Source of the DNA: Bartonella raoultii
Lineage (GTDB): Bacteria; Pseudomonadota; Alphaproteobacteria; Rhizobiales; Rhizobiaceae
Reading direction: 5' to 3'
Assembly (NCBI RefSeq): GCF_019659805.1
Contig: NZ_JAIFRO010000002.1
Span: 186,001-250,000 of the forward strand
Length of the DNA: 64,000 nt
Shown here: one piece after another, positions 3,126 to 21,640 of the stretch
Layout: every line of letters begins with the position of its first letter
How positions within the stretch are numbered: position 1 is the first letter of the stretch
Position numbers and translations under genes: made by a program
The notes under the pieces: model-generated
What the model saw: the letters and a program-made list of their open reading frames with translations, nothing else
What the model was told of the DNA's origin: nothing
The model's database searches: none

Positions 3126-3841
3126 ACTTCTTAAAAAGGCTATTATAGATTTTAACTACGTCATGCTCTTAAGCCTTTGCGGAAAATGCCTAGCTGCTTT
3201 TGTTGAAAAAAGATCACATTAGAATCCAAAATGATATATCTTTTTAAAAAGAAGTTTATTTTTCTCTTGCTATTTCATTTAACATCTTATAGGAATACAA
3301 GAAGTATATTAATAAGACTCATTTTGGCACAAAAGATATTTCAGAAGGGGGGATAGGTAATGTATACAAGAAAAACTGCTACAAAATCGCATCCGCATTA
3401 TTACATTACTCTTAATAAAAGAATATTGTAACCAATAGCTGTGTATCTTCAAAAAGCTAGCATTTCTAAAATGCTATTAAAGGCAAATACTCAAGAAAAA
3501 GCTCATGAGAAAAGTCTTTTACAGCTCAAAAATTTAATAACACAACCAACGTCGCTTAAAAGTGTAATAATCTCTTTTTTAAGCTTATATGACTAAAACC
3601 ACATTCACCTTAGACTCTAAATGTGTTCTTTTTATGTTTAAAAAACATATCTCAAAATTTTCTCATTTAGGTCACATTACAGAAAGCGCACACAAAGCAA
3701 AAATAAAAGACTCAAAACGTTCCTATTCTAAGCAGAAATCCTTACTTCAAATCCTATTTGAACAAAGCAAATACTGTTGAAATATGTCTTTTTTATGTTT
3801 TGGAGGTGTTTTTTAATTTTTTTTTCATTGGAGAGTTCATT
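3126..3841. other. AT-rich spacer and 5' leader of the giant adhesin
   Basis: This 716-base stretch between the two adhesin genes shows no convincing gene. A 23-codon ORF at 3360-3431 is preceded by a G-rich ribosome-site-like run, and a 63-codon ORF at 3589-3780 has no good ribosome site; neither has recognisable content. The promoter of the giant adhesin should lie here. Just before its start are a run of nine T (3817-3825) and a ribosome site GGAGAG (3830-3835), six bases from ATG 3842. Confidence 0.5.
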
Positions 3842-6800
3842 ATGAAAAAATTGTATGCCAAACAAAAAACGAGCAATGCAAAGTCTTCTCGTTTTTCCTT
3901 TGTACATGTTTTTTTATCGGCTACAATAGTTGCATTTCTATCAAATGTTTCATCTGTTTTTGCTTCGAATTTAGCGATAACAGGAGCAAAATCTTTAAGT
4001 GATAATTCTCCTAATTCAGGATACTCTAGAGGGAGTCACGGCAGTATTGTCTTGGCTGGTGATGATGATTATTGTGGTGTTGATAATGTTATTGGTCGTG
4101 GAGACCGTATTATAGCTGATGGTAAAGAACGTAGGGGTAAAGAAATAACAGCAGAAGAGCAATATCAGCGATTTATTGAAAATAAAGCATTTGGTAGATT
4201 ACATCCTTACGGTAGTAACGAGCAAGGACAGGACCGTTGGAGTGGTAATGGTAATACATCATTGAATAATGGTTATATGGGTGGGTCAACTAAAGGTGAT
4301 ACGAGTATATTGCCTTCAGCTTTTGGTATTTATTCTTTTGCAACAGGTTGTGGATCCTCAGCAAGGGGAAATTATTCCGTAGCGTTTGGTGCGAATGCAA
4401 CTGCGAATGCAGGAGGAGCTCAAGCTTTTGGTGTTTCTGCTCTAGCAGAGGGAAAGGTAAGTGTTGCGATAGGTGTGGGGTCAGAAGCGAAAGGAGATTC
4501 TTCGATCGCTTTAGGTGGGCTTGCGCGTACAAGTGATAATAACGCTGTTGCGATAGGTACACAGGCTCAAGCACTTACAGCTGGTGCAGTTGCTTTAGGG
4601 TCTGACTCTGTGGCGAATATTGCTGCTGGTGTTGAAGGTTATAGTTCTCTTGGTTTTAAGGGAGGGGAGGAAGATAGCGGTTTTGTATGGAGAAGTACCC
4701 GAGCTGCATTTAGTGTTGGTGATGTTAGTAAAAAAATAACAAGACAAATTGTAGGGGTTGCTGCTGGTTCTGAAGCTACCGATGCGGTGAATGTTGCACA
4801 ATTAAAAGCTTTAGAAACCTATACCAACACAAATGGTTGGACACTTTCTGTTGGTGGTGAAGATGTTGGAAAAGTTCTTATAAATAGTGAAGTAGATTTT
4901 TCCGCAGGAAGTAGTAACCTTAACATTACAAAAGGCGATAAAGACAATGAGATCAAATTTGATTTATCCAGAGATATCACACTAGATGGTGTGACAGTTG
5001 GGGGGAATGTTTTTAATGGGGCAGGTTTATCGATTAAAGATGGTCCGCAAGTGACTACTTCTGGTATTTCTGCAGGCAATAAGAAGATAACAGGTGTAGC
5101 AGCTGGTGATGCAGATAGCGACGCGGTGAATTTTTCACAACTAGAAAAAGTTAAACAAGAGGTTGCTGCTAATAGTTTTGTTCAACAAGATCCAGAAACA
5201 AACCGTATCACTATTGGAGCAAACAAAGAAGGTAGTGAGATCAACATTGCTAACAATGAAGAGGGAGCACGTACACTTTCTGGTGTAAAAGATGCCGTAA
5301 AGGGAGATGAGGCTGTTAACAAAGGGCAGCTGGATAGGGATATAGCAACTGTTAATAGCACTATTACAGATAAGATAGCGACAGTTAATAACACTATTAC
5401 AAATAAGTTCGATGCCATTACACAAAAAGCACTTTTGTGGAGTGATGAAGATGATGCTTTTGTAGCGGATCATGGTGGGGATGGTGCAAAGACAAACAGT
5501 AAAATTACGCATCTTTTGGATGGTACTATTTCTTCTTATTCAAGCGATGCGATTAATGGTAGTCAACTCTATACATTAAATCAGACCCTTGCGACCTATT
5601 TTGGTGGTGGGGCAAAGTTTGAAGATGGTAGCTGGACAGCACCTAACTTTGCAATTCAACAGTTAAATGATGATGGTAGTTCAGAAGAGAAAAACTATAG
5701 CAATGTAGCAGAAGCCTTAAAAGATGTTGGTGTTTCTTTTAAGAATGTTGAAAATAATATTACCAAGCAGGTTAATGATGCAATCATTAAAGTAGAAGGT
5801 AGTAATCTAGTTCAACAAGATCTAAAGACAAAACGTATAACCATTGGGGCAAGCAAAGAAGGTAGTGAGATTAATATTGCTAACAGTGATGAAGAAGCAC
5901 GTAAGCTTTCTGGTGTAAAGGATGCAACAGAAGTAGATGAAGCTGTTAACAAGGGGCAGCTTGATAGGGGTATAGCAACTGTTAATAACACTATTACAGA
6001 TAAGATAGCGACAGTTAATAACACTATTACAAATAAGTTCGATGCCATTACACAAAAAGCACTTTTGTGGAGTGATGAAGATGATGCTTTTGTAGCGGAT
6101 CATGGTGGGGATGGTGCAAAGACAAACAGTAAAATTACGCATCTTTTGGATGGTACTATTTCTTCTTATTCAAGCGATGCGATTAATGGTAGTCAACTCT
6201 ATACATTAAATCAGACCCTTGCGACCTATTTTGGTGGTGGGGCAAAGTTTGAAGATGGTAGCTGGACAGCACCTAACTTTGCAATTCAACAGTTAAATGA
6301 TGATGGTAGTTCAGAAGAGAAAAACTATAGCAATGTAGCAGAAGCCTTAAAAGATGTTGGTGTTTCTTTTAAGAATGTTGAAAATAATATTACCAAGCAG
6401 GTTAATGATGCAATCATTAAAGTAGAAGGTAACAACCTTGTTCAACAGGATAGTGCGACCAATCGTATAACCATTGGGGCCAGCAAAGAAGGTAGTGAGA
6501 TTAATATTGCTAACAGTAATAAAGAAGCGCGCGTACTTTCTGGTGTAAAAGATGCAGCAAATGCAGATGAAGCTGTTAACAAGGGGCAGCTTGATAGCGG
6601 TATAGCAACTGTTAATAACACTATTACAGATAAGATAGCGACAGTTAATAATACTATTACAAATAAGTTCGATGCCATTACACAAAAAGCACTTTTGTGG
6701 AGCAATGCAGATGATGCTTTTGTAGCGGATCATGGAATAGGTTTTTCAAAGGCGAAGAGTAAGCTTACGCATCTTTTAGATGGTACTATTTCTTCTGATT

Positions 6801-9800
6801 CAAGCGATGCGATTAATGGTAGTCAACTCTATACATTAAATCAGACTCTTGCGACCTATTTTGGTGGTGGGGCAAAGTTTGAAGATGGTAGCTGGACAGC
6901 ACCTAACTTTGCAATTCAACAGTTAAACGATGATGGTAGTTCAGAAGAGAAAAACTATAGCAATGTAGCAGAGGCTTTAAAAGATGTTGGTACTTCTTTT
7001 AAGAATGTTCAAAATAATATTACCAAGCAGGTTAATGATGCGATTACCAAAGTAGAAGGTAACAACCTTGTTCAACAGGATAGTGCGACCAATCGTATAA
7101 CCATTGGGGCCAGCAAAGAAGGTAGTGAGATTAATATTGCTAACAGTAATAAAGAAGCGCGCGTACTTTCTGGTGTAAAAGATGCAGCAAATGCAGATGA
7201 AGCTGTTAACAAGGGGCAGCTTGATAGCGGTATAGCAACTGTTAATAACACTATTACAGATAAGATAGCGACAGTTAATAATACTATTACAAATAAGTTC
7301 GATGCCATTACACAAAAAGCACTTTTGTGGAGCAATGCAGATGATGCTTTTGTAGCGGATCATGGAACAGGTTTTTCAAAGACGAAGAGTAAGCTTACGC
7401 ATCTTTTAGATGGTACTATTTCTTCTGATTCGAGCGATGCGATTAATGGTAGTCAACTCTATACAGTGAATCAGACTCTTGCGACCTATTTTGGTGGTGA
7501 AGCAAAGTTTGAAGATGGCAAATGGACAGCACCAAATTTCATAGTTCAACAGTTGAATGAAGATGGTAAGTCTGAAAAGCAAGAGTATGATAATGTAGCA
7601 GATGCTTTGGCCGGTGTTGGTACTTCCTTTACGAATATTGAAACGAACATTACCAAGCAGATTAATAATGCGATTACTAAAGTAGAAGGTAACAACCTTG
7701 TTCAACAGGATGATGAGACCAATCGTATAACCATTGGGGCAAGCAAAGAAGGTAGTGAGATTAATATTGCTAACAGTGATGAAGAAGCGCGCACACTTTC
7801 TGGTGTAAAGGATGCAGCAAAGGCAGATGAAGCGGTTAATAAAGGGCAGCTTGATAAGAATATAGCGACAGTTAATAACACTATTACAACTAAGTTCGAT
7901 GCCATTACACAAAAAGCACTTTTATGGAGTGATGTAGATGATGCTTTTGTAGCGGATCATGGAACAGGTTTTTCAAAGACGAAGAGTAAGCTTACGCATC
8001 TTTTAGATGGTACTATTTCTTCTGATTCGAGCGATGCGATTAATGGTAGTCAGCTCTATACATTGAATAGAACTCTTGCGACCTATTTTGGTGGTGGTGC
8101 AAAGTTTGAAGATGGCAAATGGACAGCACCAAGCTTCACAGTTCAACAGTTGAATGAAGATGGTGAGTCTGAAAAGCAAGAGTATGATAATGTAGCAGAT
8201 GCTTTGGCAGGTGTTGGTACTTCTTTCAAGAATGTTCAAAATAGTATTACCAAGCAGGTTAATAATGCGATTACTAAGGTGGAAGGTAACAATCTTGTTC
8301 AACAGGATGATGCGAGCAATCGTATAACCATTGGGGCCAGCAAAGAAGGTAGTGAGATTAATATTGCTAACAGTAATAAAGAAGCGCGTAGGCTTTCTGG
8401 TGTAAAGGATGCACAACAGGCAGATGAAGCTGTTAATAAAGGTCAGTTAGATAAGGGTATAGCAACTGTTAATAACACTATTACAACTAAGTTTGATGCC
8501 ATTGCACAAAAAGCACTTTTATGGAGTGATGTAGATGGTGCTTTTGTAGCGGATCATGGAACGGGAGGGACAAAGACGAAAAGTAAGCTCACCCATCTTT
8601 TAGATGGCGCTATTTCTTTTGATTCGAGCGATGCGATTAATGGTAGTCAGCTCTATACGCTGAATAAGACCCTTGCGACCTATTTTGGAGGTGGTTCCAA
8701 GTTTGAAGATGGTAAGTGGACTAGACCAAGTTTCGCAGTTCAACAGTTGAATGACGATGGTGAATTTGAAAAGCAAGAGTATGATAATGTAGCGGATGCT
8801 TTGGCCGGTGTTGGTACTTCCTTTACGAATATACATAATGAGATAAACAATGCGATCACTAAAGTTGAAGGTGATAGCCTTGTTAAGCAAGATGCAACAA
8901 CTCATGAAATTAGTATTGGCGGCAACAAGAGTGGTACAAAAGTTACTCTTACAAATACTGATGGAACTTTACGTAGCTTATCAGGTGTCAAGTCAGGAAA
9001 TATTTCACAAGATTCGAGTGAAGCAGTTAATGGTGGTCAGCTCTATACGTTGAATAAGACCCTTGCGACTTATTTCGGTGGTGGCTCTAAGTTTGAAGAT
9101 GGCAAGTGGACTAGACCAAGCTTCACAGTTCAACAGTTGAATGATGATGGTGAGTTTGAAAAGCAAGAGTATGATAATGTAGCGGATGCTTTGGCCGGTG
9201 TTGGCACTTCCTTTACGAATATACATAATGAGATCAACAATGCGATCACTAAGGTTGAAGGTGATAGCCTTGTTAAGCAAGATGCAACAACTCATGAAAT
9301 TAGTATTGGTGGTGACAAGAGTGGTACAAAAGTTACTCTTACAAATACTGATGGAGCTTTACGTAGCTTGTCTGGTGTCAAGTCAGGAAGTCTTTCAAAA
9401 GACTCAACAGAAGCAGTTAATGGTGGTCAGCTTTATACGTTGAATAAGACCCTTGCGACCTATTTCGGTGGTGGAGCAAAGTTTGAAGATGGCAAGTGGA
9501 CTGGACCAAGCTTCACAGTTCAACAGTTGAATGACGATGGTGAATTTGAAAAGCAAGAGTATGATAATGTAGCGGATGCTTTGGCCGGTGTTGGCACTTC
9601 CTTTACGAATATACATCATGAGATCAACAATGCGATCACTAAGGTTGAAGGTGATAGCCTTGTTAAGCAAGATGCAACAACTCATGAAATTAGTATTGGT
9701 GGCAACAAGAGTGGTACAAAAGTTACTCTTACAAATACTGATGGAACTTTACGCAGCTTGTCTGGTGTTGAGGCCGGAAATCTTTCAGAAGATTCAAGTG

Positions 9801-12800
9801 AAGCAGTTAATGGTGGTCAGCTCTATACGTTGAATAAGACCCTTGCGACCTACTTTGGAGGTGGAGCAAAGTTTGAAGATGGTAAGTGGACAGGACCAAG
9901 CTTCACAGTTCAACAGTTGAATGAAGATGGTAAGTCTGAAGAGAAGAAGTATAATAGTGTAGCGGATGCTTTGGCCGGTGTTGGTACTTCCTTTACGAAT
10001 GTTGAAAATAACATTACCAAGCAGATCAACAATGCGATCACTAAAGTTGAAGGTGATAGCCTTGTTCAACAGGATGATGCGAACAATCGTATAACTATTG
10101 GAGCAAGCAAAGAAGGTAATGAGATCAATATAGCCAACAGTGCCCAAGAAGCACGCAGGCTTTCCGGTGTAAAGGATGCGCAACAGGCAGATGAAGCAGT
10201 TAACAAAGGTCAGTTAGATAAGAATTTGCAAGCCCTTTCAGATACACTTCAATCGGATGGCTCAGCAGTTGTGCATTATGACAAACAGTCAAATGGTACT
10301 ATAGATTATACGAGTGTTACGCTTGGTAAAGCCAAAGGCTCAGCTTCTGTAGGCTTGCATAATGTAGCGAATGGACAGATTAAGGGCGGTTCTCATGATG
10401 CGATCAATGGTGGTCAGATAGAAAGTCTCTCACAAGATATTGCTAGTGCATTGGGCGGTGATGTTAAGTTTAAAGATGGTAAGTTTACCGCCCCTACCTA
10501 TAAATTGTCAGGTATTGATAAAGAGGGTCATGTGGGAGAAACGAACTATCATGATGTAGGTTCAGCCTTTGCTGGTCTTGATAAGAATATCAATAATGTC
10601 AATGAACACTTCACGAACAAGTTTGATGAACTTTCGCAGAGTATAGGGGAATCTGAGCAACAGCTTAAAGATGATGCATTGTTGTGGAGTTCGAGTGAGA
10701 AAGCCTTTGTAGCAGATCATGGAGTTGGTTCTTCAAAGACGAAAAGTAAGCTTACGCATCTTTTGGATGGAGATGTTTCAGAAAACTCCAGTGATGCGGT
10801 TAATGGTGGTCAGCTCTATACGTTGAATAAGACCCTTGCGACCTACTTTGGAGGTGGAGCAAAGTTTGAAGATGGTAAGTGGAGCGGACCAAACTTCACG
10901 GTTCAACAATTGAATGAAGATGGTAAGTCTGAAGAGAAGAAGTATAATAGTGTAGCGGATGCTTTGGCCGGTGTTGGTACTTCCTTTACGAATGTTGAAA
11001 ATAACATTACCAAGCAGATCAACAATGCGATCACTAAAGTTGAAGGTGATAGCCTTGTTCAACAGGATGATGCGAACAATCGTATAACTATTGGAGCAAG
11101 CAAAGAAGGTAATGAGATCAATATAGCCAACAGTGCCCAAGAAGCACGCAGGCTTTCCGGTGTAAAGGATGCGCAACAGGCAGATGAAGCAGTTAACAAA
11201 GGTCAGTTAGATAAGAATTTGCAAGCCCTTTCAGATACACTTCAATCGGATGGCTCAGCAGTTGTGCATTATGACAAACAGTCAAATGGTACTATAGATT
11301 ATACGAGTGTTACGCTTGGTAAAGCCAAAGGCTCAGCTTCTGTAGGCTTGCATAATGTAGCGAATGGACAGATTAAGGGCGGTTCTCATGATGCGATCAA
11401 TGGTGGTCAGATAGAAAGTCTCTCACAAGATATTGCTAGTGCATTGGGCGGTGATGTTAAGTTTAAAGATGGTAAGTTTACCGCCCCTACCTATAAATTG
11501 TCAGGTATTGATAAAGAGGGTCATGTGGGAGAAACGAACTATCATGATGTAGGTTCAGCCTTTGCTGGTCTTGATAAGAATATCAATAATGTCAATGAAC
11601 ACTTCACGAACAAGTTTGATGAACTTTCGCAGAGTATAGGGGAATCTGAGCAACAGCTTAAAGATGATGCATTGTTGTGGAGTTCGAGTGAGAAAGCCTT
11701 TGTAGCAGATCATGGAGTTGGTTCTTCAAAGACGAAAAGTAAGCTTACGCATCTTTTGGATGGAGATGTTTCAGAAAACTCTAGTGATGCGGTTAATGGT
11801 GGTCAGCTCTATACGTTGAATAAGACCCTTGCGACCTACTTTGGAGGTGGAGCAAAGTTTGAAGATGGTAAGTGGAGCGGACCAAACTTCACGGTTCAAC
11901 AATTGAATGAAGATGGTAAGTCTGAAGAGAAGAAGTATAATAGTGTAGCGGATGCTTTGGCCGGTGTTGGTACTTCCTTTACGAATGTTGAAAATAACAT
12001 TACCAAGCAGATCAACAATGCGATCACTAAAGTTGAAGGTGATAGCCTTGTTCAACAGGATGATGCGAACAATCGTATAACTATTGGAGCAAGCAAAGAA
12101 GGTAATGAGATCAATATAGCCAACAGTGCCCAAGAAGCACGCAGGCTTTCCGGTGTAAAGGATGCGCAACAGGCAGATGAAGCAGTTAACAAAGGTCAGT
12201 TAGATAAGAATTTGCAAGCCCTTTCAGATACACTTCAATCGGATGGCTCAGCAGTTGTGCATTATGACAAACAGTCAAATGGTACTATAGATTATACGAG
12301 TGTTACGCTTGGTAAAGCCAAAGGCTCAGCTTCTGTAGGCTTGCATAATGTAGCGAATGGACAGATTAAGGGCGGTTCTCATGATGCGATCAATGGTGGT
12401 CAGATAGAAAGTCTCTCACAAGATATTGCTAGTGCATTGGGCGGTGATGTTAAGTTTAAAGATGGTAAGTTTACCGCCCCTACCTATAAATTGTCAGGTA
12501 TTGATAAAGAGGGTCATGTGGGAGAAACGAACTATCATGATGTAGGTTCAGCCTTTGCTGGTCTTGATAAGAATATCAATAATGTCAATGAACACTTCAC
12601 GAACAAGTTTGATGAACTTTCGCAGAGTATAGGGGAATCTGAGCAACAGCTTAAAGATGATGCATTGTTGTGGAGTTCGAGTGAGAAAGCCTTTGTAGCA
12701 GATCATGGAGTTGGTTCTTCAAAGACGAAAAGTAAGCTTACGCATCTTTTGGATGGAGATGTTTCAGAAAACTCCAGTGATGCGGTTAATGGTGGTCAGC

Positions 12801-15800
12801 TCTATACGTTGAATAAGACCCTTGCGACCTACTTTGGAGGTGGAGCAAAGTTTGAAGATGGTAAGTGGAGCGGACCAAACTTCACGGTTCAACAATTGAA
12901 TGAAGATGGTAAGTCTGAAGAGAAGAAGTATAATAGTGTAGCGGATGCTTTGGCCGGTGTTGGTACTTCCTTTACGAATGTTGAAAATAACATTACCAAG
13001 CAGATCAACAATGCGATCACTAAAGTTGAAGGTGATAGCCTTGTTCAACAGGATGATGCGAACAATCGTATAACTATTGGAGCAAGCAAAGAAGGTAATG
13101 AGATCAATATAGCCAACAGTGCCCAAGAAGCACGCAGGCTTTCCGGTGTAAAGGATGCGCAACAGGCAGATGAAGCAGTTAACAAAGGTCAGTTAGATAA
13201 GAATTTGCAAGCCCTTTCAGATACACTTCAATCGGATGGCTCAGCAGTTGTGCATTATGACAAACAGTCAAATGGTACTATAGATTATACGAGTGTTACG
13301 CTTGGTAAAGCCAAAGGCTCAGCTTCTGTAGGCTTGCATAATGTAGCGAATGGACAGATTAAGGGCGGTTCTCATGATGCGATCAATGGTGGTCAGATAG
13401 AAAGTCTCTCACAAGATATTGCTAGTGCATTGGGCGGTGATGTTAAGTTTAAAGATGGTAAGTTTACCGCCCCTACCTATAAATTGTCAGGTATTGATAA
13501 AGAGGGTCATGTGGGAGAAACGAACTATCATGATGTAGGTTCAGCCTTTGCTGGTCTTGATAAGAATATCAATAATGTCAATGAACACTTCACGAACAAG
13601 TTTGATGAACTTTCGCAGAGTATAGGGGAATCTGAGCAACAGCTTAAAGATGATGCATTGTTGTGGAGTTCGAGTGAGAAAGCCTTTGTAGCAGATCATG
13701 GAGTTGGTTCTTCAAAGACGAAAAGTAAGCTTACGCATCTTTTGGATGGAGATGTTTCAGAAAACTCCAGTGATGCGGTTAATGGTGGTCAGCTCTATAC
13801 GTTGAATAAGACCCTTGCGACCTACTTTGGAGGTGGAGCAAAGTTTGAAGATGGTAAGTGGAGCGGACCAAACTTCACAGTTCAACAGTTGAATGAAGAT
13901 GGTAAGTCTGAAGAGAAGAAGTATAATAGTGTAGCCGATGCTTTGGCCGGTGTTGGTACTTCCTTTACGAATGTTGAAAATAACATTACTAAGCAGATCA
14001 ACAATGCGATCACTAAAGTTGAAGGTGATAGCCTTGTTAAGCAAGATGAAGTAACCCATGAAATTAGTATTGGCGGCAACAAGAGTGGTACAAAAGTTAC
14101 TCTTGCGAACACTGATGGAGCTTTACGTAGCTTGTCTGGTGTTGAGGCCGGAAGTCTTTCAGAAGATTCAAGTGAAGCAGTTAATGGTGGTCAGCTCTAT
14201 ACGTTGAATAAGACCCTTGCGACCTATTTCGGTGGTGGCTCTAAGTTTGAAGATGGCGCATGGATCGCACCAAGCTTCACAGTTCAACAGTTGAATAAAG
14301 CAGGTAAATTTGAAGAGAAGAAGTATAATAATGTAGCGGATGCTTTGGCCGGTGTTGGTACTTCCTTTACGAATATACATAATGAGATCAACAATGCGAT
14401 CACCAAGGTTGAAGGTGATAGCCTTGTTAAGCAAGATGCAACAACTCATGAAATTAGTATTGGTGGTGACAAGAGTGGTACAAAAGTTACTCTTGCGAAC
14501 ACTGATGGAGCTTTACGTAGCTTGTCTGGTGTTGAGGCCGGAAGTCTTTCAAAAGACTCAACAGAAGCAGTTAATGGTGGTCAGCTCTATACGTTGAATA
14601 AGACTCTTGCGACTTATTTCGGTGGTGGCTCTAAGTTTGAAGATGGCAAGTGGACAGGACCAAGCTTCACAGTTCAACAGTTGAATGAAGATGGTGAATT
14701 TGAAAAGCAAGAGTATGATAATGTAGCGGATGCTTTGGCCGGTGTTGGCACTTCCTTTACGAATATACATAATGAGATCAACAATGCGATCACTAAGGTT
14801 GAAGGTGATAGCCTTGTTAAGCAAGATGCAACAACTCATGAAATTAGTATTGGTGGTGACAAGAGTGGTACAAAAGTTACTCTTACAAATACTGATGGAG
14901 CTTTACGTAGCTTGTCTGGTGTCAAGTCAGGAAGTCTTTCAAAAGACTCAACAGAAGCAGTTAATGGTGGTCAGCTTTATACGTTGAATAAGACCCTTGC
15001 GACCTATTTCGGTGGTGGAGCAAAGTTTGAAGATGGCAAGTGGACTGGACCAAGCTTCACAGTTCAACAGTTGAATGACGATGGTGAATTTGAAAAGCAA
15101 GAGTATGATAATGTAGCGGATGCTTTGGCCGGTGTTGGCACTTCCTTTACGAATATACATCATGAGATCAACAATGCGATCACTAAGGTTGAAGGTGATA
15201 GCCTTGTTAAGCAAGATGCAACAACTCATGAAATTAGTATTGGTGGCAACAAGAGTGGTACAAAAGTTACTCTTACAAATACTGATGGAACTTTACGCAG
15301 CTTGTCTGGTGTTGAGGCCGGAAATCTTTCAGAAGATTCAAGTGAAGCAGTTAATGGTGGTCAGCTCTATACGTTGAATAAGACCCTTGCGACCTACTTT
15401 GGAGGTGGAGCAAAGTTTGAAGATGGTAAGTGGACAGGACCAAGCTTCACAGTTCAACAGTTGAATGAAGATGGTAAGTCTGAAGAGAAGAAGTATAATA
15501 GTGTAGCGGATGCTTTGGCCGGTGTTGGTACTTCCTTTACGAATGTTGAAAATAACATTACCAAGCAGATCAACAATGCGATCACTAAAGTTGAAGGTGA
15601 TAGCCTTGTTCAACAGGATGATGCGAACAATCGTATAACTATTGGAGCAAGCAAAGAAGGTAATGAGATCAATATAGCCAACAGTGCCCAAGAAGCACGC
15701 AGGCTTTCCGGTGTAAAGGATGCGCAACAGGCAGATGAAGCAGTTAACAAAGGTCAGTTAGATAAGAATTTGCAAGCCCTTTCAGATACACTTCAATCGG

Positions 15801-18800
15801 ATGGCTCAGCAGTTGTGCATTATGACAAACAGTCAAATGGTACTATAGATTATACGAGTGTTACGCTTGGTAAAGCCAAAGGCTCAGCTTCTGTAGGCTT
15901 GCATAATGTAGCGAATGGACAGATTAAGGGCGGTTCTCATGATGCGATCAATGGTGGTCAGATAGAAAGTCTCTCACAAGATATTGCTAGTGCATTGGGC
16001 GGTGATGTTAAGTTTAAAGATGGTAAGTTTACCGCCCCTACCTATAAATTGTCAGGTATTGATAAAGAGGGTCATGTGGGAGAAACGAACTATCATGATG
16101 TAGGTTCAGCCTTTGCTGGTCTTGATAAGAATATCAATAATGTCAATGAACACTTCACGAACAAGTTTGATGAACTTTCGCAGAGTATAGGGGAATCTGA
16201 GCAACAGCTTAAAGATGATGCATTGTTGTGGAGTTCGAGTGAGAAAGCCTTTGTAGCAGATCATGGAGTTGGTTCTTCAAAGACGAAAAGTAAGCTTACG
16301 CATCTTTTGGATGGAGATGTTTCAGAAAACTCTAGTGATGCGGTTAATGGTGGTCAGCTCTATACGTTGAATAAGACCCTTGCGACCTACTTTGGAGGTG
16401 GAGCAAAGTTTGAAGATGGTAAGTGGAGCGGACCAAACTTCACAGTTCAACAGTTGAATGAAGATGGTAAGTCTGAAGAGAAGAAGTATAATAGTGTAGC
16501 CGATGCTTTGGCCGGTGTTGGTACTTCCTTTACGAATGTTGAAAATAACATTACTAAGCAGATCAACAATGCGATCACTAAAGTTGAAGGTGATAGCCTT
16601 GTTAAGCAAGATGAAGTAACCCATGAAATTAGTATTGGCGGCAACAAGAGTGGTACAAAAGTTACTCTTGCGAACACTGATGGAGCTTTACGTAGCTTGT
16701 CTGGTGTTGAGGCCGGAAGTCTTTCAGAAGATTCAAGTGAAGCAGTTAATGGTGGTCAGCTCTATACGTTGAATAAGACCCTTGCGACCTATTTCGGTGG
16801 TGGCTCTAAGTTTGAAGATGGCGCATGGATCGCACCAAGCTTCACAGTTCAACAGTTGAATAAAGCAGGTAAATTTGAAGAGAAGAAGTATAATAATGTA
16901 GCGGATGCTTTGGCCGGTGTTGGTACTTCCTTTACGAATATACATAATGAGATCAACAATGCGATCACCAAGGTTGAAGGTGATAGCCTTGTTAAGCAAG
17001 ATGCAACAACTCATGAAATTAGTATTGGTGGTGACAAGAGTGGTACAAAAGTTACTCTTGCGAACACTGATGGAGCTTTACGTAGCTTGTCTGGTGTCAA
17101 GTCAGGAAGTCTTTCAAAAGACTCAACAGAAGCAGTTAATGGTGGTCAGCTCTATACGTTGAATAAGACCCTTGCGACTTATTTCGGTGGTGGCTCTAAG
17201 TTTGAAGATGGTAAGTGGATTAGACCAAGCTTCACAGTTCAACAGTTGAATAAAGCAGGTAAATTTGAAGAGAAGAAGTATAATAATGTAGCGGATGCTT
17301 TGGCCGGTGTTGGTACTTCCTTTACGAATATACATAATGAGATCAACAATGCGATCACCAAGGTTGAAGGTGATAGCCTTGTTAAGCAAGATGCAACAAC
17401 TCATGAAATTAGTATTGGTGGTGACAAGAGTGGTACAAAAGTTACTCTTACAAATACTGATGGAGCTTTACGTAGCTTGTCTGGTGTCAAGTCAGGAAGT
17501 CTTTCAAAAGACTCAACAGAAGCAGTTAATGGTGGTCAGCTTTATACGTTGAATAAGACCCTTGCGACCTACTTTGGTGGTGGAGCAAAGTTTGAAGATG
17601 GCAAGTGGACAGGACCAAGCTTCACAGTTCAACAGTTGAATGACGATGGTGAATTTGAAAAGCAAGAGTATGATAATGTAGCGGATGCTTTGGCCGGTGT
17701 TGGCACTTCCTTTACGAATATACATAATGAGATCAACAATGCGATCACCAAGGTTGAAGGTGATAGCCTTGTTAAGCAAGATGCAACAACTCATGAAATT
17801 AGTATTGGTGGTGACAAGAGTGGTACAAAAGTTACTCTTACAAATACTGATGGAGCTTTACGTAGCTTGTCTGGTGTCAAGTCAGGAAGTCTTTCAAAAG
17901 ACTCATCAGAAGCAGTTAATGGTGGTCAGCTCTATACGTTGAATAAGACCCTTGCGACCTACTTTGGAGGTGGAGCAAAGTTTGAAGATGGTAAGTGGAG
18001 CGAACCAAACTTCACAGTTCAACAGTTGAATGAAGATGGTGAATTTGAAAAGCAAGAGTATGATAATGTAGCGGATGCTTTGGCCGGTGTTGGCACTTCC
18101 TTTACGAATATACATAATGAAATCAACAATGCGATCACCAAGGTTGAAGGTGATAGCCTTGTTAAGCAAGATGAAGTAACCCATGAAATTAGTATTGGTG
18201 GTGACAAGAGTGGTACAAAAGTTACTCTTACAAATACTGATGGAGCTTTACGTAGCTTGTCTGGTGTCAAGTCAGGAAGTCTTTCAGAAGATTCAAGTGA
18301 AGCAGTTAATGGTGGTCAGCTCTATACGTTGAATAAGACCCTTGCGACCTACTTTGGAGGTGGAGCAAAGTTTGAGAATGGTGAATGGATAGCGCCTCAC
18401 TTTACGGTTAAGGGCTTTGATTCTGAAGGTAATGCTACAGAAGAAAGCTATGATAACGTTGCCGGTGCTTTTGAAGGTTTCAATAGTTCTCTGACAAATA
18501 TACACGATGAAATGAGTAATGCGCTTAACACTGTTGAAGGTAATAATCTTGTTAAGCAAGATCCTGAGAGTAAGAATATCACGATAGGTGGAGAAAGAGA
18601 GGGTGATGAAGTTAATATTGCCAATAAAGACCATGAAGATCGTAGGCTTTCTGGTATAAAGGCAGGGGAAAAAGCCAATGAAGCCGTTAACAAAGGTCAA
18701 TTGGATCAAGGTTTAAAAGAGTTAACAAATAGCCTTCAGTCTGATGGTTCAGCGGTTGTTCATTATGATCAATCAGAAGATGGTAGCATAGATTATACGA

Positions 18801-21640
18801 GTGTTACGCTTGGTAAAGCCAAAGGCTCAGCTTCTGTAGGCTTGCATAATGTAGCTGATGGGCAAATTAGCGCTGGTTCTCATGATGCGATCAATGGTGG
18901 TCAGCTAGAAGTTCTTTCTCAAGATATTGCCAAGGCATTGGGTGGAGATGCGAAATTTGCAGATGGTAAGTTTAGCGAACCTACCTATACATTGTCTGAT
19001 ATAGATAAAGATGGGGAAGTAGGCTCAACGAGTTACCATGATGCGGGTTCAGCGCTTGCTGGTCTTGATAAGAATATTAACAATGTCAATAATAACTTAA
19101 CGAATAAGTTTGATGAACTGAGCCAAAATGTAGGGCAAGCAACGCAACAGCTTAAAGATGATGCATTGTTGTGGAGTTCGAGTGAGAAAGCCTTTGTAGC
19201 AGATCATGGAGTTGGTTCTTCAAAGACGAAAAGTAAGCTTACGCATCTTTTGGATGGAGATGTTTCAGAAAACTCCAGTGATGCGGTTAATGGTGGTCAG
19301 CTCTATACGTTGAATAAGACCCTTGCAACCTACTTTGGAGGTGGAGCAAAGTTTGAGAATGGTGAATGGATAGCGCCTCACTTTACGGTTAAGGGCTTTG
19401 ATTCTGAAGGTAATGCTACAGAAGAAAGCTATGATAACGTTGCCGGTGCTTTTGAAGGTTTCAATAGTTCTCTGACAAATATACACGATGAAATGAGTAA
19501 TGCGCTTAACACTGTTGAAGGTAATAATCTTGTTAAGCAAGATCCTGAGAGTAAGAATATCACGATAGGTGGAGAAAGAGAGGGTGATGAAGTTAATATT
19601 GCCAATAAAGACCATGAAGATCGTAGGCTTTCTGGTATAAAGGCAGGGGAAAAAGCCAATGAAGCCGTTAACAAAGGTCAATTGGATCAAGGTTTAAAAG
19701 AGTTAACAAATAGCCTTCAGTCTGATGGTTCAGCGGTTGTTCATTATGATCAATCAGAAGATGGTAGCATAGATTATACGAGTGTTACGCTTGGTAAAGC
19801 CAAAGGCTCAGCTTCTGTAGGCTTGCATAATGTAGCTGATGGGCAAATTAGCGCTGGTTCTCATGATGCGATCAATGGTGGTCAGCTAGAAGTTCTTTCT
19901 CAAGATATTGCCAAGGCATTGGGTGGAGATGCGAAATTTGCAGATGGTAAGTTTAGCGAACCTACCTATACATTGTCTGATATAGATAAAGATGGGGAAG
20001 TAGGCTCAACGAGTTACCATGATGCGGGTTCAGCGCTTGCTGGTCTTGATAAGAATATTAACAATGTCAATAATAACTTAACGAATAAGTTTGATGAACT
20101 GAGCCAAAATGTAGGGCAAGCAACGCAACAGCTTAAAGATGATGCATTGTTGTGGAGTTCGAATGAGAAGGCTTTTGTAGCGGATCATGGAGCAGAAGGT
20201 GAAAAGACAGCTAGCAAGATCACACATCTTTTAAATGGAGAGATTACGCAAGCTTCTACGGATGCAATTAATGGTAGCCAGCTTTATTCGTTGAATAAGA
20301 CCCTTGCAACCTACTTTGGTGGTGAAGCGAAGTTTGAAAATGGCAAGTGGACAGCACCAAATTTCACGGTTACGAGCTTGAATGATGATGGTACGTTTGA
20401 AGAAAAGAAGTATAATAATGTTGCAGATGCATTTTCGGAAATGAATAATTCTTTCACGAAACTTCACGATGATATTTTGTATAATTTTGATCCAAATGCG
20501 TTGTTATGGAGTGATGAAGAAAAAGCATTTGTAGCGCTTCATGGTCAAGGTGACGCAAAGCATGATAGTAAGCTAACACATCTTTTAGATGGAGATATCT
20601 CACAAGGTTCTACAGAAGCCATTACAGGTAATCAGCTCTATGTATTAAACCAAGCTCTTGCAACATATTTTGGTGGTGGAGCCAAGTTTGAAAATGGAGT
20701 ATGGACAGCGCCAAACTTTAAAGTTGCCCAGTTTACAGGTGATGGTAGTTCTTCAGAAGAAAAGAGCTATGATAGTGTTGCTGGAGCATTTGAAGGTGTT
20801 AATGGTAGCCTTAGCTCTATGAATGATCGTATCAATTCCGTTGAACAGTCCGTTGGACAGAATGTTAATTCGAATGGCTTAAATTGGAATGATAAAGAAG
20901 GTTCTTATGATGCGCGCCATAATGGTGATGAAAGTAAGATAACGCATGTAGCGGATGGTAATATATCCCAAGGTTCCAAAGATGTTGTTAATGGAGGTCA
21001 GCTTTGGGACACCAATGAACGTGTTGGTAAGGTTGAACAGCGTGTAGATGATATTGATAAACATGTCCAAGATATTGCTACGGAAGTTGCGGATGGATCT
21101 GTTAATTATGATAAGGATGAAACAGGCAAGAAGACGAATAAAGTTACGTTAGTTGGTGGCGATGAAAGTGCTCCTGTAGTGATAGACAATGTAGCAGATG
21201 GCAAGATAGAAAAAGGTTCGAAAGAAGCTGTTAATGGCGGTCAGTTACATGATTACACTGAAGAGCAGATGAAGATAGTTCTTGATGATGCGAAGAAATA
21301 CACGGATGATCGTGTTCAGGATATTGTCAATGATAGTGTTAATGAAGCCAAGTCATATACAGATATGAAGTTTGAAACGTTAAATTATGCCATTGAGGAT
21401 GTTCGTAAAGAAGCTAGACAGGCAGCAGCTATTGGGTTAGCGGTCTCTAACTTACGTTATTATGATATACCTGGATCTGTGAGCCTTTCATTTGGTACGG
21501 GTATATGGCGTAGCCAATCCGCATTCGCTGTAGGTGCTGGTTATACATCTGAAGATGGGAATATTCGTTCTAACGTATCTATTACGAGCGCTGGAGGCCA
21601 CTGGGGGATAGGTGCAGGGATTACGTTAAGGTTGAGATGA
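3842..21640 (+). CDS. badA: Giant BadA/Vomp-type trimeric autotransporter adhesin (about 5,932 aa)
   Basis: This is a complete adhesin, much longer than the roughly 3,000-residue BadA of B. henselae. The start at 3842 is chosen for its ribosome site GGAGAG and the long type-V signal peptide after it (MKKLYAKQK..., hydrophobic core, cleavage near VFA-SN at about residue 41). Residues about 155-280 form a YadA-like beta-roll head with repeats such as GNYSVAFGANA and GDSSIALGG. A neck follows at about 299-322 (TDAVNVAQLK). The stalk runs from there to about 5845, with some 26 YFGG[GE] modules in tandem arrays. Residues 5847-5932 are the coiled coil and trimeric beta-barrel anchor. No frameshift or internal stop is present. 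The protein should be surface exposed and act in host-cell and matrix adhesion and autoaggregation. The symbol denotes the family; one-to-one orthology with B. henselae badA is inferred. Its stop codon overlaps the next gene. Confidence 0.93.
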   Translation: MKKLYAKQKTSNAKSSRFSFVHVFLSATIVAFLSNVSSVFASNLAITGAKSLSDNSPNSGYSRGSHGSIVLAGDDDYCGVDNVIGRGDRIIADGKERRGKEITAEEQYQRFIENKAFGRLHPYGSNEQGQDRWSGNGNTSLNNGYMGGSTKGDTSILPSAFGIYSFATGCGSSARGNYSVAFGANATANAGGAQAFGVSALAEGKVSVAIGVGSEAKGDSSIALGGLARTSDNNAVAIGTQAQALTAGAVALGSDSVANIAAGVEGYSSLGFKGGEEDSGFVWRSTRAAFSVGDVSKKITRQIVGVAAGSEATDAVNVAQLKALETYTNTNGWTLSVGGEDVGKVLINSEVDFSAGSSNLNITKGDKDNEIKFDLSRDITLDGVTVGGNVFNGAGLSIKDGPQVTTSGISAGNKKITGVAAGDADSDAVNFSQLEKVKQEVAANSFVQQDPETNRITIGANKEGSEINIANNEEGARTLSGVKDAVKGDEAVNKGQLDRDIATVNSTITDKIATVNNTITNKFDAITQKALLWSDEDDAFVADHGGDGAKTNSKITHLLDGTISSYSSDAINGSQLYTLNQTLATYFGGGAKFEDGSWTAPNFAIQQLNDDGSSEEKNYSNVAEALKDVGVSFKNVENNITKQVNDAIIKVEGSNLVQQDLKTKRITIGASKEGSEINIANSDEEARKLSGVKDATEVDEAVNKGQLDRGIATVNNTITDKIATVNNTITNKFDAITQKALLWSDEDDAFVADHGGDGAKTNSKITHLLDGTISSYSSDAINGSQLYTLNQTLATYFGGGAKFEDGSWTAPNFAIQQLNDDGSSEEKNYSNVAEALKDVGVSFKNVENNITKQVNDAIIKVEGNNLVQQDSATNRITIGASKEGSEINIANSNKEARVLSGVKDAANADEAVNKGQLDSGIATVNNTITDKIATVNNTITNKFDAITQKALLWSNADDAFVADHGIGFSKAKSKLTHLLDGTISSDSSDAINGSQLYTLNQTLATYFGGGAKFEDGSWTAPNFAIQQLNDDGSSEEKNYSNVAEALKDVGTSFKNVQNNITKQVNDAITKVEGNNLVQQDSATNRITIGASKEGSEINIANSNKEARVLSGVKDAANADEAVNKGQLDSGIATVNNTITDKIATVNNTITNKFDAITQKALLWSNADDAFVADHGTGFSKTKSKLTHLLDGTISSDSSDAINGSQLYTVNQTLATYFGGEAKFEDGKWTAPNFIVQQLNEDGKSEKQEYDNVADALAGVGTSFTNIETNITKQINNAITKVEGNNLVQQDDETNRITIGASKEGSEINIANSDEEARTLSGVKDAAKADEAVNKGQLDKNIATVNNTITTKFDAITQKALLWSDVDDAFVADHGTGFSKTKSKLTHLLDGTISSDSSDAINGSQLYTLNRTLATYFGGGAKFEDGKWTAPSFTVQQLNEDGESEKQEYDNVADALAGVGTSFKNVQNSITKQVNNAITKVEGNNLVQQDDASNRITIGASKEGSEINIANSNKEARRLSGVKDAQQADEAVNKGQLDKGIATVNNTITTKFDAIAQKALLWSDVDGAFVADHGTGGTKTKSKLTHLLDGAISFDSSDAINGSQLYTLNKTLATYFGGGSKFEDGKWTRPSFAVQQLNDDGEFEKQEYDNVADALAGVGTSFTNIHNEINNAITKVEGDSLVKQDATTHEISIGGNKSGTKVTLTNTDGTLRSLSGVKSGNISQDSSEAVNGGQLYTLNKTLATYFGGGSKFEDGKWTRPSFTVQQLNDDGEFEKQEYDNVADALAGVGTSFTNIHNEINNAITKVEGDSLVKQDATTHEISIGGDKSGTKVTLTNTDGALRSLSGVKSGSLSKDSTEAVNGGQLYTLNKTLATYFGGGAKFEDGKWTGPSFTVQQLNDDGEFEKQEYDNVADALAGVGTSFTNIHHEINNAITKVEGDSLVKQDATTHEISIGGNKSGTKVTLTNTDGTLRSLSGVEAGNLSEDSSEAVNGGQLYTLNKTLATYFGGGAKFEDGKWTGPSFTVQQLNEDGKSEEKKYNSVADALAGVGTSFTNVENNITKQINNAITKVEGDSLVQQDDANNRITIGASKEGNEINIANSAQEARRLSGVKDAQQADEAVNKGQLDKNLQALSDTLQSDGSAVVHYDKQSNGTIDYTSVTLGKAKGSASVGLHNVANGQIKGGSHDAINGGQIESLSQDIASALGGDVKFKDGKFTAPTYKLSGIDKEGHVGETNYHDVGSAFAGLDKNINNVNEHFTNKFDELSQSIGESEQQLKDDALLWSSSEKAFVADHGVGSSKTKSKLTHLLDGDVSENSSDAVNGGQLYTLNKTLATYFGGGAKFEDGKWSGPNFTVQQLNEDGKSEEKKYNSVADALAGVGTSFTNVENNITKQINNAITKVEGDSLVQQDDANNRITIGASKEGNEINIANSAQEARRLSGVKDAQQADEAVNKGQLDKNLQALSDTLQSDGSAVVHYDKQSNGTIDYTSVTLGKAKGSASVGLHNVANGQIKGGSHDAINGGQIESLSQDIASALGGDVKFKDGKFTAPTYKLSGIDKEGHVGETNYHDVGSAFAGLDKNINNVNEHFTNKFDELSQSIGESEQQLKDDALLWSSSEKAFVADHGVGSSKTKSKLTHLLDGDVSENSSDAVNGGQLYTLNKTLATYFGGGAKFEDGKWSGPNFTVQQLNEDGKSEEKKYNSVADALAGVGTSFTNVENNITKQINNAITKVEGDSLVQQDDANNRITIGASKEGNEINIANSAQEARRLSGVKDAQQADEAVNKGQLDKNLQALSDTLQSDGSAVVHYDKQSNGTIDYTSVTLGKAKGSASVGLHNVANGQIKGGSHDAINGGQIESLSQDIASALGGDVKFKDGKFTAPTYKLSGIDKEGHVGETNYHDVGSAFAGLDKNINNVNEHFTNKFDELSQSIGESEQQLKDDALLWSSSEKAFVADHGVGSSKTKSKLTHLLDGDVSENSSDAVNGGQLYTLNKTLATYFGGGAKFEDGKWSGPNFTVQQLNEDGKSEEKKYNSVADALAGVGTSFTNVENNITKQINNAITKVEGDSLVQQDDANNRITIGASKEGNEINIANSAQEARRLSGVKDAQQADEAVNKGQLDKNLQALSDTLQSDGSAVVHYDKQSNGTIDYTSVTLGKAKGSASVGLHNVANGQIKGGSHDAINGGQIESLSQDIASALGGDVKFKDGKFTAPTYKLSGIDKEGHVGETNYHDVGSAFAGLDKNINNVNEHFTNKFDELSQSIGESEQQLKDDALLWSSSEKAFVADHGVGSSKTKSKLTHLLDGDVSENSSDAVNGGQLYTLNKTLATYFGGGAKFEDGKWSGPNFTVQQLNEDGKSEEKKYNSVADALAGVGTSFTNVENNITKQINNAITKVEGDSLVKQDEVTHEISIGGNKSGTKVTLANTDGALRSLSGVEAGSLSEDSSEAVNGGQLYTLNKTLATYFGGGSKFEDGAWIAPSFTVQQLNKAGKFEEKKYNNVADALAGVGTSFTNIHNEINNAITKVEGDSLVKQDATTHEISIGGDKSGTKVTLANTDGALRSLSGVEAGSLSKDSTEAVNGGQLYTLNKTLATYFGGGSKFEDGKWTGPSFTVQQLNEDGEFEKQEYDNVADALAGVGTSFTNIHNEINNAITKVEGDSLVKQDATTHEISIGGDKSGTKVTLTNTDGALRSLSGVKSGSLSKDSTEAVNGGQLYTLNKTLATYFGGGAKFEDGKWTGPSFTVQQLNDDGEFEKQEYDNVADALAGVGTSFTNIHHEINNAITKVEGDSLVKQDATTHEISIGGNKSGTKVTLTNTDGTLRSLSGVEAGNLSEDSSEAVNGGQLYTLNKTLATYFGGGAKFEDGKWTGPSFTVQQLNEDGKSEEKKYNSVADALAGVGTSFTNVENNITKQINNAITKVEGDSLVQQDDANNRITIGASKEGNEINIANSAQEARRLSGVKDAQQADEAVNKGQLDKNLQALSDTLQSDGSAVVHYDKQSNGTIDYTSVTLGKAKGSASVGLHNVANGQIKGGSHDAINGGQIESLSQDIASALGGDVKFKDGKFTAPTYKLSGIDKEGHVGETNYHDVGSAFAGLDKNINNVNEHFTNKFDELSQSIGESEQQLKDDALLWSSSEKAFVADHGVGSSKTKSKLTHLLDGDVSENSSDAVNGGQLYTLNKTLATYFGGGAKFEDGKWSGPNFTVQQLNEDGKSEEKKYNSVADALAGVGTSFTNVENNITKQINNAITKVEGDSLVKQDEVTHEISIGGNKSGTKVTLANTDGALRSLSGVEAGSLSEDSSEAVNGGQLYTLNKTLATYFGGGSKFEDGAWIAPSFTVQQLNKAGKFEEKKYNNVADALAGVGTSFTNIHNEINNAITKVEGDSLVKQDATTHEISIGGDKSGTKVTLANTDGALRSLSGVKSGSLSKDSTEAVNGGQLYTLNKTLATYFGGGSKFEDGKWIRPSFTVQQLNKAGKFEEKKYNNVADALAGVGTSFTNIHNEINNAITKVEGDSLVKQDATTHEISIGGDKSGTKVTLTNTDGALRSLSGVKSGSLSKDSTEAVNGGQLYTLNKTLATYFGGGAKFEDGKWTGPSFTVQQLNDDGEFEKQEYDNVADALAGVGTSFTNIHNEINNAITKVEGDSLVKQDATTHEISIGGDKSGTKVTLTNTDGALRSLSGVKSGSLSKDSSEAVNGGQLYTLNKTLATYFGGGAKFEDGKWSEPNFTVQQLNEDGEFEKQEYDNVADALAGVGTSFTNIHNEINNAITKVEGDSLVKQDEVTHEISIGGDKSGTKVTLTNTDGALRSLSGVKSGSLSEDSSEAVNGGQLYTLNKTLATYFGGGAKFENGEWIAPHFTVKGFDSEGNATEESYDNVAGAFEGFNSSLTNIHDEMSNALNTVEGNNLVKQDPESKNITIGGEREGDEVNIANKDHEDRRLSGIKAGEKANEAVNKGQLDQGLKELTNSLQSDGSAVVHYDQSEDGSIDYTSVTLGKAKGSASVGLHNVADGQISAGSHDAINGGQLEVLSQDIAKALGGDAKFADGKFSEPTYTLSDIDKDGEVGSTSYHDAGSALAGLDKNINNVNNNLTNKFDELSQNVGQATQQLKDDALLWSSSEKAFVADHGVGSSKTKSKLTHLLDGDVSENSSDAVNGGQLYTLNKTLATYFGGGAKFENGEWIAPHFTVKGFDSEGNATEESYDNVAGAFEGFNSSLTNIHDEMSNALNTVEGNNLVKQDPESKNITIGGEREGDEVNIANKDHEDRRLSGIKAGEKANEAVNKGQLDQGLKELTNSLQSDGSAVVHYDQSEDGSIDYTSVTLGKAKGSASVGLHNVADGQISAGSHDAINGGQLEVLSQDIAKALGGDAKFADGKFSEPTYTLSDIDKDGEVGSTSYHDAGSALAGLDKNINNVNNNLTNKFDELSQNVGQATQQLKDDALLWSSNEKAFVADHGAEGEKTASKITHLLNGEITQASTDAINGSQLYSLNKTLATYFGGEAKFENGKWTAPNFTVTSLNDDGTFEEKKYNNVADAFSEMNNSFTKLHDDILYNFDPNALLWSDEEKAFVALHGQGDAKHDSKLTHLLDGDISQGSTEAITGNQLYVLNQALATYFGGGAKFENGVWTAPNFKVAQFTGDGSSSEEKSYDSVAGAFEGVNGSLSSMNDRINSVEQSVGQNVNSNGLNWNDKEGSYDARHNGDESKITHVADGNISQGSKDVVNGGQLWDTNERVGKVEQRVDDIDKHVQDIATEVADGSVNYDKDETGKKTNKVTLVGGDESAPVVIDNVADGKIEKGSKEAVNGGQLHDYTEEQMKIVLDDAKKYTDDRVQDIVNDSVNEAKSYTDMKFETLNYAIEDVRKEARQAAAIGLAVSNLRYYDIPGSVSLSFGTGIWRSQSAFAVGAGYTSEDGNIRSNVSITSAGGHWGIGAGITLRLR
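5180..8674 (+). repeat. Stalk array of 630-bp units and 597-bp derivatives
   Basis: Taking the GCG of the ATYFGG motif as reference, units begin at 5591, 6221, 6851 and 7481 (630 bp apart), then 8078 and 8675 (597 bp apart). A partial unit precedes at about 5180. The longer units carry an internal 11-codon duplication (IATVNNTITDK / IATVNNTITNK) that the 597-bp units lack, which accounts for the 33-bp difference. All lengths are multiples of three. Confidence 0.9.
8675..9844 (+). repeat. Stalk array of three 390-bp units
   Basis: Three units of exactly 390 bp (130 residues) begin at 8675, 9065 and 9455. Each encodes a YFGGG module, the segment VQQLN[DE]DGEFEKQEYDN, a VADALAGVGTSFTNIH helix, a HEISIGG strand motif and EAVNGGQLYTLNK. 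They are much more alike at DNA level than most stalk modules, suggesting recent tandem amplification. Confidence 0.9.
9845..13816 (+). repeat. Four tandem 993-bp stalk units, almost identical
   Basis: Units of 993 bp (331 residues) begin at 9845, 10838, 11831 and 12824. They differ by very few bases: the first has TGPSF where later ones have SGPNF, and single-base differences such as CTCC/CTCT appear near the unit ends. Each unit has a YFGGG module, a QQDDANNRITIGASKEG block, a SDGSAVVHYD block, a second ALGGD module and a DALLWSSSEKAFVADHG block. A fifth, separated copy lies at 15389-16381. Confidence 0.93.
14219..15388 (+). repeat. Second array of three 390-bp stalk units
   Basis: Units begin at 14219, 14609 and 14999. 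From about 14700 onward the DNA matches the 9156-10786 region (offset 5,544 bases). This array and the following 993-bp unit therefore appear to be a block copy of the earlier 390/993 junction. Confidence 0.88.
15389..16381 (+). repeat. Fifth, dispersed copy of the 993-bp stalk unit
   Basis: This unit matches the tandem 993-bp units at 9845-13816 but is separated from them by a 390-bp array. It shares the TGPSF variant with the first tandem copy and the CTCT variant near its end with the second, so it looks like a recombinant copy. Confidence 0.88.
16784..18343 (+). repeat. Third array of 390-bp stalk units (four units)
   Basis: Units begin at 16784, 17174, 17564 and 17954. The first part of this array and the preceding 402-bp unit match the region starting at 13769 (offset 2,565 bases) without difference over about 760 bases (13769-14531 versus 16334-17096), before switching to a different variant. 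Confidence 0.88.
18344..20161 (+). repeat. 972-bp stalk unit followed by a near-complete second copy
   Basis: The unit starting at 18344 is repeated at 19316 (offset 972 bases), with one early base difference (GCG/GCA), and the match runs to about 20161, where the copies diverge. It encodes a KFENGEWIAPHF module, a KQDPESKNITIGGE block, the SDGSAVVHYD block and an ALGGDAKFADG module. It is related to, but distinct from, the 993-bp unit. Confidence 0.88.
20495..21329 (+). repeat. C-terminal stalk block shared with upstream adhesin
   Basis: This block is nearly identical to 1923-2757 in the upstream paralog (offset 18,572 bases); one base difference was noted (T at 1980 region versus C at 20552 region). 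Sequence on both sides differs clearly, including the membrane-anchor strands after about 21440. Such a sharply bounded match suggests gene conversion or unequal recombination between the two adhesin genes. Confidence 0.85.

Follow-up and report, generated by a model that had tools for sequence, protein, structure and literature searches.

A BadA-type adhesin gene of Bartonella raoultii with a nested-repeat stalk and tracts identical to its neighbouring paralogue

Related adhesins and the position of g4

In trimeric autotransporter adhesins, the C-terminal barrel is made up of three chains, and the tip head is carried on a stalk built of neck, FGG and DALL-type elements. The closest described relative of the gene studied here is BadA of B. 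henselae, which has a head, a neck/FGG/DALL stalk with three connector variants and a YadA anchor (PMC9602544, excerpt), together with an ialB homologue next downstream and a stalk shaped by recombination (PMC8859334, excerpt). Recombination of the badA island has been suggested in this species, and a shared badA/ialB operon is proposed in section 17 of the same source. Stalk motif repeats of B. henselae mediate fibronectin binding (PMC9602544, excerpt). Length variation of badA among B. henselae isolates is already published: the genes of eight isolates span 8.7-13.2 kb, the proteins of expressing strains have 2,920-4,407 aa, and BadA of strain Marseille was set at 3,973 aa by long reads, superseding a 9,249-bp gene (PMC8859334, excerpt). 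The same source describes two headless, stop-disrupted badA-like frames of 7,128 and 6,834 aa. In B. grahamii subsp. shimonis, deletion of badA via conserved C-terminal parts has been proposed (PMC10684924, excerpt). The Vomp family of B. quintana comprises four tandem genes with a common conserved 5' region, and deletions in isolates have been reported for it (PMC10936683, excerpt). Finally, in Periscope Proteins the head is raised by a stalk of highly identical tandem domains, whose number differs among isolates; according to section 4 of PMC9704523, this class is single-chain and trimeric autotransporter adhesins are set apart as lacking tandem repeat domains, and the same section states that the latter may function similarly.

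The window analysed here is a stretch of 64,000 nt from Bartonella raoultii (contig NZ_JAIFRO010000002.1, C22 below, positions 186,001 to 250,000). It holds g4, the last of four adhesin frames arranged in tandem on this contig (1,906, 1,391, 2,716 and 5,977 codons). This gene resembles badA of B. henselae in its head, connector-rich stalk, anchor, downstream ialB homologue and apparently recombination-shaped stalk, but, unlike badA, it has a sister gene, g3, with exactly the same 5' flank and head. Four tandem frames and a shared 5' region recall Vomp, whereas the shared 5' tract, shown only for g3 and g4 among the four genes, and the giant size of the last one do not. With 5,932 aa against 2,920-4,407 aa in expressing B. 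henselae strains, the protein is about 1.5 times as long as Marseille BadA; the factor of about two given in the first-pass annotation holds only in relation to the 9,249-bp gene that has been superseded, and the length of g4 is less exceptional than stated there. In contrast to the disrupted frames of 6,834 and 7,128 aa, g4 has a head. It shares with Periscope Proteins the highly identical tandem domains of a head-lifting stalk and, by analogy, may work like one, but is not filed in that class, as family knowledge points to a trimer. We consider it probable (roughly 0.8) that g4 is a BadA-type adhesin whose stalk was lengthened by repeated in-frame unequal recombination together with exchange with g3.

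Gene identity and repeat layers of the stalk

Starting from an ATG at 3842 within a frame that is open from 3707, g4 reads through 5,932 codons to a stop ending at 21640, with no N and no internal stop, so the uninterrupted frame of about 17.8 kb and 5,930 residues reported earlier holds. The BadA-type identity and the presence of all parts, likewise claimed at that stage, are borne out by Pfam, structural and motif matches. Indeed, YadA_head (PF05658), YadA_stalk (PF05662) and YadA_anchor (PF03895) all exceed their Pfam cut-offs. Residues 167-331 match 1p9h and correspond to a YadA-like head (PF05658 at residues 202-226), and a BadA-type head part is indicated for residues 328-478 by their match (E 6e-34) to 3d9x, a solved Adhesin A chain. 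In total, nine PDB sequences match the head region, including 1p9h (listed as Invasin) and 4lgo (VompD), and the 993-nt stalk module matches the trimeric adhesin 3wpa (E 3e-11). Using patterns drawn after section 5 of PMC9602544, we counted 24 DSLV-like, 14 ALLWS and 7 GSAV connectors, i.e. all three published DALL-type signatures, as well as 49 neck-like motifs (44 under a stricter pattern). A profile built from 25 of the 26 modules recovers 33 FGG-like units in g4, of which 26 are YFGG[GE] and 7 ALGGD motifs. Judged from these matches, the identity of g4 as a BadA-type trimeric autotransporter adhesin gene is firm. Additional Pfam hits to KicB, DUF6489, bPH_6, PGM_PMM_III, Myb_DNA-bind_3 and DUF7779 were rejected as repeat artefacts, no stretch being significant alone, and an Rfam search across the whole window gave nothing at gathering scores.

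Table 1. Features of the g4 locus (positions in the window)
Feature	Position	Strand	Remarks
3' end of g3	3..3068	+	
Tract identical to g3, 2,296 nt	3603..5898	+	2,057 nt of g4 from its start, preceded by 239 nt of flank
g4, BadA-type trimeric autotransporter adhesin gene, 5,932 aa	3842..21640	+	one frame; Pfam head, stalk, anchor
Head region of g4	4340..5275	+	PF05658, 1p9h and 3d9x matches
M1-M3, period 630	5522..7411	+	91.3-97.8% identical
M4-M5, period 597	7412..8605	+	90.6% identical
M6-M8, period 390	8606..9775	+	
M9-M12, period 993, three-domain unit	9776..13747	+	M10=M12
M13, 402 nt	13748..14149	+	one base from M18
Second higher-order block: 390x3 (M14-M16), 993 (M17), 402 (M18)	14150..16714	+	
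M19-M22, period 390	16715..18274	+	
M23-M24, period 981	18275..20236	+	96.8% identical
M25, 354 nt; then 26th YFGG motif	20237..20590	+	
Tract identical to g3, 777 nt	20555..21331	+	same reading phase
YadA-type membrane anchor of g4	21458..21625	+	PF03895, E 2.9e-13
ialB-like gene	21637..22212	+	PF06776, E 1.6e-16

The YFGG[GE] motifs of g4 follow each other at spacings of 630x3, 597x2, 390x3, 993x4, 402, 390x3, 993, 402, 390x4, 981x2 and 354 nt. Module boundaries were placed in the register of a 300-nt reference repeat (Table 1). These spacings and the module families confirm the nested build described in the first-pass annotation, along with its 26 motifs and its periods of 630, 597, 390/402 and 993 nt; its last period of 972 nt was measured as 981. 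Divisibility of the periods by three, which had been offered as evidence, was discarded: any tandem repeat within a single open frame has this property of necessity, and it is therefore not independent evidence.

Above the level of single modules, the stalk contains two consecutive higher-order blocks, one of 5,544 nt (390x3, 993x4, 402) and one of 2,565 nt (390x3, 993, 402), after which come the 390x4 and 981x2 arrays. Three pairs of modules are identical, namely M9 and M17, M10 and M12, and M8 and M16, with a distance of 5,544 nt from M9 to M17 and from M8 to M16; a single base separates M11 from M10, and likewise M13 from M18. The 12 base differences between M9 and M10 are all confined to positions 9779-9916, indicating that the copied 993-nt unit starts inside the FGG region. 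Elsewhere the units are more diverged, by up to 55 bases among the 390-nt units and by 56 between the two 597-nt units, and these layers are older than the identical modules. Of the g4 sequence, 69% falls within exact repeats of 100 nt or longer, with 1,865 nt as the longest exact run, and three arrays reach TRF scores of 2337, 2862 and 3347; the repetition is far beyond chance.

Tracts shared with g3 and unit turnover in the genus

The sister gene g3 (C22:181053-189065) encodes 2,670 aa. Its longer tract of identity with g4 spans the 5' flank, the head and the first module, while the aligned stalk parts of the two genes are only about 72-85% identical and their anchors 78% identical as protein. 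Such a mosaic, with 100% identity in the 5' part and in the 777-nt tract and about 72-85% in the stalk, needs exchange between the paralogues. Given the similarity of M1 and M2, one more exact run, of 443 nt between the start of g3 and M2 of g4, is to be expected. The exact 5' tract is absent from the first gene of the tandem, where the upstream element described below is also missing. The earlier proposal that the stalk has been changed by recombination is thus strengthened, by the identical modules, by the clustering of units by gene and by the exact g3 tracts near both ends. Elsewhere in the same genome, contig C4 (L146, 13,021 bases) carries adhesin pieces, some with several stops, which look like remains of older badA genes.

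To place g4 among its relatives, 71 genomes of the genus were used, own included, 61 of which gave an anchor match at E <= 0.001. Among the matches listed, the largest open frames have 5,977 (own genome), 5,645, 5,179, 5,056, 4,807 and 4,595 codons, figures that are lower bounds for the relatives, many of whose genomes are in many contigs. Within the same matches g4 is the longest gap-free frame. With 1,746 X residues, the 5,645-aa frame of G070 does not count as a length record, and no start was found for the 5,056-aa frame of G066. At the DNA level, the ialB-like gene finds its best match in the fetched relatives at 85.4%, the Ppx/GppA gene at 86.5%.

Stalk units were compared over 20 stretches of 15 genomes, mainly long frames, from which 21 genes of 14 genomes were used. 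The nearest FGG unit lies in the same gene for 191 of 390 units and in the same genome for 250 of 390, whereas 500 label shuffles gave 21.1 same-gene neighbours on average and never more than 39. The counts are very uneven, with 30/33 same-gene neighbours in g4, 25/29 in G022_L140 and 20/21 in the G001 gene, and 0/19 in G032, 0/11 in G038 and 1/20 in G025_L130, which indicates that turnover differs among adhesin genes. The share taken up by exact repeats (100 nt or more) is 71% in G022_L140 and 63% in the G001 gene, and falls to 0-40% in the remaining 18 genes, two of which are N-rich; G070 has none, but its sequence is full of N. The 1,865-nt exact repeat of g4 is the longest among the 21 genes. 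The L140 adhesin has 24 YFGG motifs in a near-regular array of 375/393/396 nt and only two neck-pattern matches, so that it probably uses another connector type.

In relatives, too, neighbouring adhesin genes share long identical tracts. The G027 pair shares 2,033 nt exactly plus shorter pieces, the G022 pair 572 nt near the 3' end and the G070 pair, with many N, 64 nt. In G025, the adjacent genes L130 and L131 are identical over 4,916 nt that begin in the stalk and reach almost to the end, a tract larger than any between g3 and g4. At the 5' end, the shared run is at most 80 nt in G025 and G027, the only two comparable pairs besides g3/g4; the G022 pair is not comparable there, one of its frames lacking a head start.

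These comparisons bear on the most serious alternative, that the stalk is mis-assembled, with 993-nt copies extra or missing or with a block or the g3 head mis-joined, the true length being shorter or longer. Exact runs of up to 1,865 nt in a genome of 30 contigs could favour such errors, and section 20 of PMC8859334 reports that B. henselae badA was mis-sized earlier for the same reason. However, the copies carry differences of their own (a single base in M11, another between M13 and M18, and 12 between M9 and M10), the two tuf copies of 1,191 nt, 99.9% identical, were resolved on two contigs, and the long exact paralogue tracts of G025 and G027 stand in assemblies of two and one contigs, respectively. 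A search for rRNA found neither 16S nor 23S in the own genome; 16S was likewise not found in eight of eight genus genomes, two of them single-contig, so that this absence weighs neither for nor against the assembly. Overall, we regard a mis-assembled stalk as rather unlikely, and recombination within g4 and with g3 as the better reading of the repeats.

Flanking elements, proposed origin and consequences

Upstream of g4, the element ATRTGTCTTTTTTATGTT is present at 3782-3799, with a weaker copy at 3621-3638; it lies 41-60 nt before Bartonella adhesin ATGs. With up to two mismatches it was found upstream of 17 of 19 adhesin genes, compared with an average of 0.005 in shuffled flanks, the pattern having been derived from the tested genes themselves and two of the 21 genes omitted for want of a start. 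Exact matches in the own genome are confined to g3 and g4, and two-mismatch matches are near the control level. Since the element is read in differing frames across genes, it is probably regulatory. Mononucleotide runs were also sought, as a badE-like on/off switch, and positions 3300-21640 contain only three (A/T of at least 8, G/C of at least 6), G6 at 3347, T9 at 3817 and G6 at 5000. The T9 run (3817-3825) lies 17 nt before the ATG, is the same in g3 and g4 and differs in length in relatives; its length could vary and alter g4 expression. At the other end, the ATG of the ialB-like gene overlaps the g4 stop as ATGA (21637-21640). At the corresponding place, ten of 12 relatives' genes read ATGA and the other two GTGA.

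Could g4 chiefly be a reservoir from which the other three genes draw stalk units, or be made seldom or never, so that its length would have no effect on a fibre? Its exact tracts in common with g3 do show exchange, and the long BadA of B. grahamii subsp. shimonis is weakly evidenced, by a single peptide (PMC10684924, excerpt). Nevertheless, g4 keeps an intact frame, a signal-like N terminus, a head and an anchor, and expressed B. henselae fibres scale with gene length (PMC8859334, section 21); a role mainly as a reservoir, or a product seldom or never made, seems improbable. Selection on protein sequence in place of recent copying, which the structural constraint on neck, FGG and DALL-type motifs known from the family would favour, is very improbable and largely refuted as the cause of module likeness, the pairs M9/M17, M10/M12 and M8/M16 being free of synonymous changes too, which points to recent copying.

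Recombinational turnover of g4 is, on the strength of the repeat comparisons, well supported. In the proposed course of events, copying in frame would first have multiplied two units, one of 390 nt with one domain and one of 993 nt with three, and then the higher-order blocks (390x3, 993xn, 402, with n=4 and n=1), and exchange with the adjacent g3 would keep the 5' flank with the head, and the tract near the anchor, identical. The recombination route and any change within populations we infer from sequence, as we do trimerization, expression, adhesion and fibre length; g4 may well change in length among cells. The product would work like BadA, as a trimeric fibre with a tip head and a stalk of many connector domains. 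From six pairs of BadA length and fibre length given in section 21 of PMC8859334, corresponding to 0.046-0.061 nm per residue, fibres of about 308 nm (270-363) are predicted for g4 and of about 139 nm for g3. Since both genes have the same head, one head may be displayed on fibres of two lengths, a long one (g4) and a shorter one (g3), with stalk length free to change.

New here are the 69% exact-repeat coverage, the 30 of 33 units whose nearest neighbour lies in the same gene and the 2,296- and 777-nt tracts identical to g3. A same-head, two-length pair was found in none of the titles and abstract openings listed in searches of open-licence papers, which is weak evidence of absence. It is a tentative and rather doubtful suggestion that the two genes form a fibre-length system, in which exchange between g3 and g4, or of stalk units, resets the distance of the head from the cell; if true, a trimeric family outside the Periscope definition would control length in a Periscope-like manner. 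If the unit number is real, g4 is among the longest complete BadA-type adhesins found in the genus here, and represents a trimeric adhesin whose tandem domains are nearly identical, contrary to the published generalisation. A pair with one head and two stalks would separate fibre length from head identity within one strain.
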